A stretch of DNA of 64,000 nucleotides. Source: Isosphaeraceae bacterium EP7 (GTDB lineage Bacteria > Planctomycetota > Planctomycetia > Isosphaerales > Isosphaeraceae). A model generated the notes under the pieces. The model saw only the letters and a list, made by a program, of their open reading frames with translations. It had not been told where the DNA came from and ran no database searches. Both the position numbers and the translations under genes were made by a program. Location: positions 372,001 through 436,000 of the forward strand of contig CP151667.1 of the NCBI GenBank assembly GCA_038400315.1. The letters are read 5' to 3'. Positions 30,310 to 33,599 of the stretch are shown here, piece after piece (position 1 is the stretch's first letter; the number at the start of each line of letters is the position of its first letter).

Positions 30310-31320
30310 TCAGGCGGGACGTGCGGTCCAGTCCCGGAACGCGTCCTCGTCGACGTTCCGGCCGCTGACGACGACCACGATGTCGCCTTCCCCGGCCAGG
30401 TCGACACCGCCCGTGAGCAGCGCCGCCACGCCGATCGCGCCCGAGGGCTCGGTGCGCAAGCCGTGGATGTCGTAGATTTTGCGCATCGCCTCCCGGGTGT
30501 CGGAGTCGGACACCGGGACCGATTGCCGCACCAGGTGTTCGAGGATCGGCCAGTTGTGCTCGCCGACGTCGTAGGAGAGCAAGCCGTCGCAGATGCTCGC
30601 CGGCCGATCGATGCGGACCCGCTTTCCGGCGATCAATGACCTGCGGAAGTCGTCCGCCCCCTCCGGCTCGACGCCGACGATCCGGGCCGCCGGGAACCCG
30701 TCGGCGATCGCGATCGCGTGGCCGGCCATCAGCCCGCCGCCGCTGACCGGGCAGAAGAAGTGCGACACGTCGCGCCCCTCGCGTTTCAGCTCGCGGACGA
30801 TCTCCAGCCCGCCGACCCCGTTGCCGGCGATCACGTAGGGGTCGTCATAGGGCGAGGCCTGGACGGCGTTCTCCACCTCGGCGATCTCACGCGTCAGGCG
30901 GTCCCTCTCGCCGGTCTCGTGGTCGCGGGCGATGTCATAGGTACGCACCTCGGCGCCGAACGACCGGGTCCGCTCGAACTTCACGCGCGGGGCGGACTCG
31001 GGCATGACGACGATGACGCGCCGGTCGTATCGCATCCCCGCGAAGGCGATCCCCGATGCGAAGTTGCCCGACGAGTGGGCCGCGACCGGCCGGTCGCCGA
31101 GCCCGGCCAGGTTGTTCGCCATCCAGTTCAAAGCGCCCAGAAGCTTGAACGACCCGGAGGGGGTCCAGCCGTAATCCTTGAGCCAGACCCTGCGGCTGGG
31201 CGGCAGCCCGAGTCTCGTTTCCAGGGCATACGAGCGGATGAGTGGCGCGGGCGAGACGTGCTGGAGGATGACGCCTTCGGCATCGCGGACGTCGTCGATG
31301 GTGACCAGTCGGACGGACAT
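30310..31320 (-). CDS. PLP-dependent threonine/serine dehydratase-like enzyme
   Basis: A 336-residue fold-type II PLP enzyme. VWLKDYGWTPSGSFKLLGAL holds the Schiff-base Lys59 in SxxFK. AAHSSGNFASGIAFAG is the substrate carboxylate-binding loop, and PVSGGGLMAGHAIAI the Gly-rich phosphate-binding loop. It ends with TEPSGAIGVAALL and DIVVVVSGRNVD. There is no ACT regulatory domain, so it is of catabolic rather than biosynthetic (IlvA) type. Serine-racemase-like activity is also possible. Confidence 0.9.
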   Translation of the reverse strand: MSVRLVTIDDVRDAEGVILQHVSPAPLIRSYALETRLGLPPSRRVWLKDYGWTPSGSFKLLGALNWMANNLAGLGDRPVAAHSSGNFASGIAFAGMRYDRRVIVVMPESAPRVKFERTRSFGAEVRTYDIARDHETGERDRLTREIAEVENAVQASPYDDPYVIAGNGVGGLEIVRELKREGRDVSHFFCPVSGGGLMAGHAIAIADGFPAARIVGVEPEGADDFRRSLIAGKRVRIDRPASICDGLLSYDVGEHNWPILEHLVRQSVPVSDSDTREAMRKIYDIHGLRTEPSGAIGVAALLTGGVDLAGEGDIVVVVSGRNVDEDAFRDWTARPA

Positions 31321-31408: not shown

Positions 31409-31834
31409 TCAGTCTTTCTTCAGCTCGTAAAGCCAGGACTCCCCGTCCGCCTCCTTGAACGTTCCCGGCCGCGTGTCGTAGCCCGGCGCGGCGACGCAGA
31501 GGAGCAGCTTCTCCCCCTCGAACTTGTAGATTGCCTTGAACTTCAGGCCCACCGCGTCGGCCGGCCCGGCGGTGATCTCCAGGTCGAGCTCGCCCGGGGT
31601 TGTCCCCTCCTTGACCTGGAACTTGCTCGTATACGTCTGCCCATCGGCGGTCGTCTTGACCGTCTCCTTGTCGAACGCCCAGGTGCTCTTCTCGCCGTTG
31701 CGTTCGCCGGTCCAGCTTCCCTGCATGGCCTTCAGGCCCTTCTTGCCCGCCGCGGGCTCGTCGCCTCGCGCCGCCGCGCCCAGGCCCACCACCAACAACG
31801 CCGCCAGGGCCAGGCCCGCCTGTCGCATGCTCAT
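31409..31834 (-). CDS. Small exported protein, TIGR03067-like
   Basis: A 141-residue protein with a signal peptide (RQAGLALAALLVVGLGAAARG) followed by a lipocalin-like beta domain: LKAMQGSWTGERNGEKSTWAFDKETVKTT, LEITAGPADAVGLKFKAIYKFEGEKLLLCVAAPGYDTRPGTF. This is the pattern of the planctomycete/acidobacterial TIGR03067 family, whose function is unknown. GGAGG 8-12 nt before the ATG at 31834 decides the start over longer in-frame extensions. Confidence 0.83.
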   Translation of the reverse strand: MSMRQAGLALAALLVVGLGAAARGDEPAAGKKGLKAMQGSWTGERNGEKSTWAFDKETVKTTADGQTYTSKFQVKEGTTPGELDLEITAGPADAVGLKFKAIYKFEGEKLLLCVAAPGYDTRPGTFKEADGESWLYELKKD

Positions 31835-32180
31835 CGGTCCGCCTCCGAGACTCCACGAGATCGCGCCGCCGACGGTCGGCGACCCTGTCCAGACGCAGAG
31901 TCTGTCCTCCCCGCGCCCCCCATTCAAGGGACGGCCCCGGCCTCCCCGCCGATTCAATCGGACGTCGGGCCCGACCCGATCGGCCCAATCCGCCCCACGG
32001 CGAGACAATGTTGGCGGCCCCCGGGCGAATCCGTCGACGTCGGGGGCGTTGCGGCCCGTATTCGTACGTGCTCGAAGTCGCGCCGAGGTCGGCTTTCTCG
32101 ATTCCCTCAGTGTGGCTATCCTCCTGAGCGGCGCCATTCGGGCGCCCCAAGCTCGGCTCACTCAAAGGACGGGGCGGGCC
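31835..32180. other. Intergenic region between divergent genes
   Basis: About 346 bases between the TIGR03067-like gene and the DAC-like gene. It must contain both promoters. I found no strong -35/-10 pair or repeat. Confidence 0.45.
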
Positions 32181-33599
32181 ATGGCAATTCCGGTCGGACG
32201 ATTGACGGTGGGTCCTGGCTTCGACGCGGGCCGCGAGAATCGGGCCGTCGCCGAGCTCTTCGTGACGTTCTTCCGCCGCGACCTCCTCCAGTTCTGCCCC
32301 AATCTGACGTTTGACGACGCCGGCGAGCCCGCCGCGTCCATCGACCCCTCCGCGGCCCCCAACTTCCGCCTCGCCTCCGTCGAAGGCCGGGGTGCCGGCG
32401 TCGAGCTGTTCGGCGCCCGATTCCGGCTCGTCCCCAGGCCGGGTACGCGCATCACCCCGCACGATCGCCGGATGATCCGGTCGATCGGCGCGGTGCTCAG
32501 CCTGCGCTACCACCACCTCTTCCGGCTCGGCAACTCGTCGCGCCTGGAACTCTACCGGGGCGGTTCCGAAGACCACTACGTCGCCGCCTTCGTCGAGCCG
32601 TCGGCCTACGCCCCCTCGGTCAGCAGGCCCAGCCGGGTCGCCTCGACGATCCAGACCTTGCGGGTCGCGGCCCTCTCCACCTACGAGAACCGCCGCGTCT
32701 CCACCGGAGCCCTGCTGCTCGGCCGAGCAGCCCGCTCGCCCCGCAGGCCCACGCCCACCCCCCACGATGCCCTCCCCTACGGCGTCGAGCTGACCGCCCT
32801 GAAGAGCATCCACCGGCTCTGCGACGGCCGCCGGACCCTCTTCCTGGTCGACCGCGAGGGGCGGCTTGCCGAGATCGTCGACATCGCCCGCTGGTCAGCC
32901 GAGGTCCCCTCCAGGACCCGCGCCGTCACCCCCAGCGCCCGGGCCTACGCCGCACACGCTCGGGCGACCCGCTCCGGCGGGCACGTCTGCCTGGTGCTCA
33001 GCCCCAACCAGGAGATCAAGCTGTTCGCCGGCGGCGTCCAGGCATTCGCGTTCGCACACGGACGTTGGCGTACGCTCGACCCCTCGGCGCACTTCGCTTC
33101 CTGGGAGGCCGCCGTCGCCCGCCCCGAACTGGCCCGATCCCTCTTCCAGGCCGCCCTCGACCTGGCCGAGACTCGCCAGGGGGGGCTCTTCGTCGTGGTG
33201 AATGACCCCGCCGAGGCGATCGGCCGGCTGATCTCGCCGCAGGACGCACTCGATTCCCCCGAAGCCAGGCCCGACGGCCCGCCGGCCGAGGGGGACCTCA
33301 TGGCCAAGCGAGACCTGCACTACCTGGCCCGGGGCCGCGACGTCGCCGGTCTCGACCCCTCGGTCCTCGAGGCCCTCGCCTGCATCGACGGCGCCACCGT
33401 CGTCGACCGCCAGGGCCGACTCATCGCCTTCGGCGCTATCCTCCGCAACGACCCCGCCGCGCAGCACGACGCCACCGTCGCCGAAGGGGCACGAACCACC
33501 GCCGCCTTCGCCGCCAGCCGCTTCGGCCCCGTCCTCAAGATCAGCGAAGACGGCGTCATCTCCTGCTTCCTCGACGGCGTCCGAGCCTGGGAGATGTGA
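32181..33599 (+). CDS. DisA/DAC-superfamily nucleotide-cyclase-like protein with altered RHR motif
   Basis: A 472-residue cytoplasmic protein. The C-terminal ~130 residues align with the diadenylate cyclase (DAC) domain of DisA. LEALACIDGATVVDRQGRL holds DGA at 403-405, AFGAILRNDPAA follows, and GARTTAAFAASRFGPVLKISEDGVISCFLDG holds the second motif. In DisA and CdaA this reads G-x-R-H-R; here it is G436-A-R438-T439-T440, so His and the second Arg, which contact the ATP triphosphate, are replaced by Thr. Activity is therefore doubtful; nucleotide binding or another substrate is possible. The N-terminal ~330 residues appear to hold other domains of unknown kind, possibly the sensor regions seen with divergent DAC proteins. 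There is no DisA-type HhH DNA-binding domain. Confidence 0.78.
   Translation: MAIPVGRLTVGPGFDAGRENRAVAELFVTFFRRDLLQFCPNLTFDDAGEPAASIDPSAAPNFRLASVEGRGAGVELFGARFRLVPRPGTRITPHDRRMIRSIGAVLSLRYHHLFRLGNSSRLELYRGGSEDHYVAAFVEPSAYAPSVSRPSRVASTIQTLRVAALSTYENRRVSTGALLLGRAARSPRRPTPTPHDALPYGVELTALKSIHRLCDGRRTLFLVDREGRLAEIVDIARWSAEVPSRTRAVTPSARAYAAHARATRSGGHVCLVLSPNQEIKLFAGGVQAFAFAHGRWRTLDPSAHFASWEAAVARPELARSLFQAALDLAETRQGGLFVVVNDPAEAIGRLISPQDALDSPEARPDGPPAEGDLMAKRDLHYLARGRDVAGLDPSVLEALACIDGATVVDRQGRLIAFGAILRNDPAAQHDATVAEGARTTAAFAASRFGPVLKISEDGVISCFLDGVRAWEM

Follow-up and report, generated by a model that had tools for sequence, protein, structure and literature searches.

P0001, a protein of 472 amino acids encoded within the window analysed here (64,000 nucleotides of the genome of Isosphaeraceae bacterium EP7, contig CP151667.1, positions 372,001 to 436,000 of the forward strand), is best explained, from its predicted structure, as a soluble single-chain pair of diadenylate cyclase (DAC) folds, in which a variable N-terminal domain is followed by a pseudo-DAC domain (residues 149–302) and a C-terminal DAC domain (residues 303–472). 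The C-terminal domain belongs to a class in which the histidine of the RHR motif is replaced and a lysine is present nearby, referred to below as the lysine class. A tandem DAC in one chain with a lysine-class C-terminal half would represent a new variant of the DAC superfamily.

Table 1. Coordinates of the P0001 gene, its domains and motifs in the window, and of one further DAC gene in the host genome
Feature	Position	Strand	Basis or remark
Whole gene, single-chain tandem DAC protein	32181..33599	+	ORF and translation; 48 relatives with 39–65% identity from Isosphaeraceae
N-terminal domain, residues 1–148, weak GAF-like resemblance	32181..32624	+	VIA matches within residues 14–120
Middle domain, residues 149–302, cryptic pseudo-DAC (predicted)	32625..33086	+	Model, Foldseek, VIA, hhalign; weak partial Pfam DACNK match
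GALI counterpart in the middle domain, GALL, residues 176–179	32706..32717	+	Aligns with GGLF of the C-terminal domain
DGA counterpart in the middle domain, D215-G216	32823..32828	+	67/67 in alignment A2; aligns with DGA of other DACs
C-terminal DAC domain, residues 303–472	33087..33596	+	VIA Z 11.6–14.1 to 40 DAC entries; hhalign E 1.7e-17
GALI-type motif GGLF, residues 334–337	33180..33191	+	G334 67/67, L336 65/67
DGA motif, residues 403–405	33387..33395	+	D403 and G404 67/67, A405 64/67
Altered RHR motif GARTTA, residues 436–441	33486..33503	+	R438 66/66 rows with a letter; residue 439 T in 63, S in 3
KISEDG, residues 453–458: gained Lys, motif Ser, acidic residue	33537..33554	+	K453, S455, and D457 each 65/65 rows with a letter
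RH-type DAC L001	C1:6967690-6968067		DGG instead of DGA, with GTRHW

Gene and predicted structure of P0001

The open reading frame starts with ATG at 32181 and ends with a stop codon at 33597–33599. Its frame remains open for a further 645 bases in the 5' direction (31536–32180, plus strand), as far as a TTG at 31536, and this upstream stretch is antisense to a minus-strand ORF at 31409–32161. Aligned relatives, judged by eye, suggest a start near 32181.

A full-length AlphaFold2 model of P0001, predicted with 67 sequences, had a mean pLDDT of 89.9 and a pTM of 0.90, and the best 50 Foldseek matches listed for it belonged without exception to DAC proteins, with E values from 9.1e-5 upwards; E was ≤0.001 for 51 matches. 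By sequence, Pfam returned nothing over its cut-off for P0001 by itself, and searches of the PDB with P0001 and with the family alignment A1 as queries returned no DAC; the matches of A1 to RNA polymerase I subunit RPA49 (E 0.09 and worse) were judged to be due to chance.

The N-terminal domain is the least conserved part of the protein, with 4 of 148 positions conserved at ≥95%. In the model, these 148 residues look weakly GAF-like; the VIA rows falling inside residues 14–120 were 3eea (Z 5.0) and 4fof (Z 4.9), under the level at which VIA is reliable.

The C-terminal domain

VIA analysis of the C-terminal part of the model revealed that the best 40 rows were all DAC entries, with Z scores of 11.6–14.1, and that the next row scored 5.0. 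The matches included M. tuberculosis DisA (9y4s; Z 13.5, 2.8 Å over 128 residues) and the CdaA–ATP structure 8c4o (Z 13.0). In hhalign, the domain matched 33 DACs of other classes with a probability of 98.9 and an E value of 1.7e-17 over 137 columns. Conservation within the domain was concentrated at the motifs, 19 of its 38 conserved positions lying inside motif windows that span 34 of 170 residues, and the third letter of the DGA motif was the usual one in 64 of the 67 rows of alignment A2, with DGG in two rows and DGL in one. As modelled, the C-terminal domain is a DAC fold.

These results bear out part of the first-pass annotation of this DNA, which had assigned the C-terminal domain to the DAC superfamily, read its DGA as kept and its RHR as R-T-T, and excluded both DisA and CdaA. 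DGA is present, and the R-T-T form, GARTTA, is conserved across relatives. The DAC domain ends the protein at residue 472, leaving no room for the linker and HhH domain of DisA; no membrane segment of the CdaA kind was found, the best 19-residue Kyte–Doolittle mean being 1.16, below 1.6 (a statement from hydropathy rather than from a dedicated membrane predictor). The structural model placed a DAC fold at residues 303–472, and the HMM comparison matched PF02457 in 29 of the 49 sequences making up the family alignment (E ≤1, best 1.8e-7) and the Pfam family DACNK, weakly, in 8 of these 49 members (E ≤1, best 0.0025). For P0001 alone, Pfam gave no PF02457 match, even at E up to 10; the 27-bit cut-off of that family was reached in situ by members of the P0001 paralog group in nine other genomes.

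The middle domain

The first-pass annotation had missed that residues 149–302 form a second, cryptic DAC fold, which we consider well supported. The order of helices and strands in this region, judged by eye in the model, is the same as in DAC domains, and the stretch 'TGALLLG ... CDGRRTLFLVDREGRL' resembles 'GALI ... DGA'. When the domain was predicted alone (67 sequences), it was modelled with a pLDDT of 86.2 and a pTM of 0.85. The best 50 Foldseek matches listed were again all DAC (best E 5.8e-5, 16 with E ≤0.001), and their TM scores by query, 0.44–0.56, indicate a moderate match. In VIA, the best 40 rows were all DAC entries with Z scores of 8.1–9.9, the best being 8c4n (3.4 Å over 121 residues), and the score dropped to 3.0 at row 41.

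An initial profile comparison between the middle and C-terminal domains gave a negative result (E 0.092, probability 0.37). A second one, run with a larger set of rows, fresh alignments, different settings, and DACs of other classes as the partner, matched the middle domain to the 33 other-class DACs with a probability of 65.7 and an E value of 5.8e-5 over 132 colinear columns, compared with a probability of 0.4 and an E value of 0.13 for the reversed control; the match to the protein's own C-terminal domain was still weak (probability 11, E 0.0027). The DACNK match of P0001 covered residues 161–226 and scored 11.7 bits against a Pfam cut-off of 27 bits.

The middle domain has no conserved R/H/acid set in A2, although D215-G216 is invariant there; this pair is missing from the distant relatives L082–L085 and present in L169 and L176. 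Conserved positions appear only modestly concentrated at the motif places, with 11 of 27 lying in windows, set by eye, that span 34 of 154 residues, a count reached by 7 of 154 shifts.

The altered RHR motif and the lysine class

Among the Isosphaeraceae rows fetched, DGA and GAR-(T/S) were present in 50 of 50, P0001 included (L052 duplicates L022). GxR-(T/S) occurred in 66 of the 67 rows of A2, from which the short sequences L167 and L168 were left out, and the remaining row ends before the motif. Compared with the catalytic motif GxRHRxA, P0001 has GARTTA, and Thr or Ser stands at the His place in 66 of the 66 A2 rows with a letter there.

A lysine two residues before the motif Ser was found in all 77 rows without the His (RxN rows aside), corresponding to 72 distinct genes because P0001, L146, L085, L084, and L083 each occur a second time (as L170, L171, L172, L173, and L175, respectively); none of the 22 RH rows and none of the 5 RxN rows has this lysine. 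The sample comprised 108 rows, four of which could not be parsed (L086, L089, L112, and L162), and the motif classes were named only after the motifs had been seen. For the added DACs, 392 genomes of the phylum were searched, 42 had a match, and the loci of 30 were fetched and combined with earlier finds. In L083 and L175 the motif reads GARRA, with the lysine present. Five CdaA-type rows had been picked by their GTRHRAA motif and so do not test the His/Lys rule, and L201, L206, and L207 were excluded. Within the RH-class relatives, Ala also occurs at the Thr102 place, and the third motif residue is variable (RHW, RHQ, RHE).

In a phylogenetic tree built without the motif columns, 72 lysine-class rows fell on one side of a single branch (support 99/93; 100% of 200 bootstrap trees). 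The RH rows needed two changes rather than one, with L088 on a long branch. L112, L162, and L086 were absent from this tree, and L194 was treated as RxN. Because the lysine class forms one branch, the His-to-Lys exchange may have happened once; given a short alignment and some long end branches, the tree shows the class and not repeated independent exchanges. The RxN-type DACs L087, L089, L183, L190, L194, and L195, whose motifs include GARYN, GARLN, and GARFN, occupied a separate branch (99/85). In L087 and L089, a DAC match is combined with DACNH, and L089 and L194 have both DACNG and DACNH. As far as the sequences tell, the RHR change marks a class that is conserved across Planctomycetota and Acidobacteriota and is not a sign of decay.

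In the available part of PMC7288161, the side-chain contacts of CdaA to ATP are given as Leu31 (GALI), Asp71 (DGA), Thr102, Arg103, and His104 (GxRHRxA), and Ser122, with Glu124 holding Mg; the contacts listed in that part do not include the third R of RHR. The counterparts Leu336, Asp403, Arg438, and Ser455 are kept in P0001, Asp457 takes the place of Glu124 (the 'SEE' counterpart reads ISED), and P0001 has lost the equivalents of Thr102 and His104. The first-pass claim that the RHR change should remove key triphosphate contacts is therefore too strong, since the CdaA-type contacts are mostly kept and Lys453 lies nearby in the sequence. From strand alternation, Lys453, on the strand leading into the motif Ser, would be well placed for a phosphate contact.

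Relatives and distribution

Relatives of P0001 were found in 40 of 45 Isosphaeraceae genomes, where they form two paralog groups with 52–65% and 39–45% identity to P0001. Both groups were present in 20 of these 40 genomes, as counted from the list of relatives, and the host genome of P0001 carries two members, one per group. In a wider search, relatives occupied at least 68 distinct loci in Planctomycetota (Singulisphaera, Paludisphaera, Aquisphaera, Tautonia, and MAGs), Acidobacteriota MAGs, and one Desulfuromonadales MAG.

All 45 Isosphaeraceae genomes contain a DAC match of at least 75 bits (the motif was not read in each), including the five without P0001 relatives. Co-occurrence therefore says little, and loss of P0001 relatives after loss of canonical DACs is an uninformative comparison because every one of the 45 genomes holds a DAC over the cut-off. 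Outside Isosphaeraceae, 24 of the 24 genomes reached via the loci have a DAC match over the cut-off, the best match being at least 108 bits in 23 of them. The other DAC match in G664, a Bryobacterales MAG with a P0001 relative (L154), scores only 31.9 bits; this genome may be incomplete or may be a case without an ordinary DAC.

Host genome and gene neighbourhood

The host genome encodes two RH-type DACs, L001 (Table 1) and L002 (DGA, GTRHE), and contains a c-di-AMP riboswitch (RF00379, 87.4 bits, C1:6793400-6793545, corresponding to L208:1501-1646), so that P0001 is not its only likely source of c-di-AMP. The riboswitch precedes a mechanically called ORF whose product would be a small protein, perhaps one of the membrane.

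Pfam analysis of the nine ORFs neighbouring P0001 (26849–38370) identified a PLP enzyme and Clp_N, ArsR, and AHSA1 proteins and left five without a name. We compared the neighbourhoods in 70 stretches, taking at most 8 kb of flanking sequence around the loci and assigning gene names by eye. In the P0001 paralog group, no neighbour cluster was common to more than seven loci of these 70 stretches. The other Isosphaeraceae paralog group shares gene order, with a membrane-glycosyltransferase-like gene of about 540 residues in 11 loci (L118, L126, L142, and eight others of this group); in three of the maps drawn for the group it lies immediately upstream in the same orientation, which may hint at a role in the cell envelope. 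Near the relatives in Acidobacteria, an epimerase-like gene was present in 21 loci. A cluster of PLP-enzyme-like genes had members in the window, in L111, and in 17 loci of Acidobacteria, making 19 stretches; its member in the window is a PLP-dependent enzyme (PALP) at 30310–31320 on the minus strand. Orientation and distance differ among these stretches, and the recurrence is perhaps due to chance. We read shared neighbours as shared gene order, which does not in itself prove a pathway.

Comparison with known systems

Both P0001 DAC domains resemble in fold the DAC/DisA_N (PF02457) domains of DisA, CdaA, CdaS, and DacZ, with which the C-terminal domain shares DGA, the RHR Arg, the motif Ser, and an acidic residue. 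P0001 differs from these DACs in lacking the His and second Arg of RHR, in having gained a Lys, in carrying two DAC folds in one chain, and in having a different N-terminal part. DACNK stands before DAC domains, and Pfam describes it as a 'probable sensor domain'; in P0001, the region with the weak DACNK match is a DAC fold in the model. The RxN-type DACs with DACNG and DACNH (L089 and L194) resemble P0001 in their altered RHR (GARYN, GARLN), SEDG, and large N-terminal half, but they have no Lys, lie on another tree branch, and carry other N-terminal domains. The C1/C2 pair of class III adenylyl cyclases embodies the same one-chain idea in an unrelated fold, with one catalytic half equipped and the other degenerate.

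In the literature search, the papers examined for tandem DAC domains concern, in the parts available, ordinary dimers; Galperin 2023, which reportedly covers DAC domain architectures, lay outside that search. By title, the only match for degenerate or inactive DAC domains concerned a K+ transporter, the only match for DACNK and its sister names was unrelated, and nothing returned dealt with c-di-AMP in Planctomycetes and Acidobacteria.

Possible functions

In the parts of these papers available, ordinary DACs are reported to act only when a pair of DAC domains is arranged head to head (PMC8573169; described as face to face in PMC10167629), and the DGA Asp reportedly contacts ATP bound to the partner molecule (PMC6741144). 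We suggest, at slightly less than even odds (about 45%), that P0001 is a regulator binding an Mg-nucleotide or c-di-AMP and built as an intramolecular DAC pair. The C-terminal pocket would bind an Mg-nucleotide (ATP or c-di-AMP) via D403, R438, K453, S455, and D457, with Lys453 replacing the lost His at a phosphate contact; the pseudo-DAC would stand in for the second protomer, its D215-G216 reaching the nucleotide on the C-terminal half; and the N-terminal half would pass c-di-AMP or ATP occupancy on to a partner. With only one well-equipped nucleotide site, P0001 alone would make c-di-AMP inefficiently and is thus most likely a reader of c-di-AMP or ATP. Retention of D215-G216 without the R/H/acid set is what would be expected if the middle half helps with the ligand of the other half and binds none itself; the loss of this pair in L082–L085 indicates that the idea of an Asp acting in trans is not general. 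The reading is favoured by the two predicted DAC folds, the conserved lysine class and pocket residues, the RH-type DACs and riboswitch of the host genome, and the effect of RHR replacement in two other DACs (below). Against a reader, the invariant DGA Asp and the acid at the Mg place exceed what a pure c-di-AMP reader would need and would fit a living catalyst, and the neighbour genes of the loci compared point to no pathway. The moderate Foldseek match of the middle domain, its negative initial profile comparison, and the modest concentration of its conserved positions also weigh against the proposed pair.

Such a catalyst could be an active cyclase whose basic residue has been relocated, in which Lys453 does the work of the His and two nucleotides are joined by the C-terminal domains of separate chains, or by one such domain together with the pseudo-DAC, the predicted product being c-di-AMP or another cyclic dinucleotide. 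The DGA Asp, the RHR Arg, the motif Ser, and the acidic residue are all kept, the Lys is present exactly where the His is gone, and the class spans Planctomycetota, Acidobacteriota, and one Desulfuromonadales MAG. We nevertheless regard activity as somewhat unlikely: the His touches phosphate in CdaA (PMC7288161), replacement of RHR by AAA abolishes activity and ATP binding in M. tuberculosis DacA (PMC3328451) and activity in M. bovis CdaM (PMC13022847), as far as the available portions of these papers report, and the host genome already has two RH-type DACs. More doubtful still would be a pseudo-heterodimeric cyclase in one chain, whose degenerate half would give the Asp in trans while Lys453 replaces the RHR His in the working half; with one nucleotide site, its product would possibly differ from symmetrical c-di-AMP.

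The need of ordinary DACs to pair, and the proposal that GlmM inhibits CdaA by blocking pairing (PMC8573169, consulted in part), make it conceivable that the C-terminal DAC forms face-to-face pairs with an ordinary DAC, dampening it by blocking productive ones; 45 of 45 Isosphaeraceae genomes have a DAC match (at least 75 bits, motif not read in each). A built-in pseudo-DAC partner lessens the need for an outside one, and DAC matches also occur in genomes without P0001 relatives, which makes this role improbable. A structural pseudoenzyme with no nucleotide ligand would be in line with the alteration of both RHR and SEE and with the absence of a telling partner gene, yet the pocket residues are among the best conserved, as reflected in the concentration of conserved C-terminal positions in the motif windows, and we consider it quite improbable. 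The profile NF053872 (DS2_3_antiphage), which we take from its name to be the DS-2 DAC, gave weak matches (E ≤1) to 34 of the 49 members, the best at 2.3e-4. A CBASS-linked DAC is needed for defence in DS-2 (PMC13092281, in the part available). A corresponding anti-phage role for P0001 is disfavoured as very improbable, in that its own match to this profile reached 18.3 bits against a cut-off of 630 and covered 52 residues of the DAC core only, PADLOC returned 0 families for the 49 members, and Pfam found no CD-NTase or phospholipase in the nine neighbouring ORFs (five unnamed).

Implications

As a natural fused DAC pair, P0001 would make it possible to tell the roles of the two protomers apart by mutation, something that homodimers preclude. 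From the His-to-Lys exchange follows a rule, open to testing, on nucleotide binding or turnover by DAC-like proteins. The case further suggests that a region weakly matching a 'probable sensor domain' in Pfam can itself be a DAC fold, and the lysine class points to a component of Planctomycetota and Acidobacteriota that may be related to c-di-AMP.
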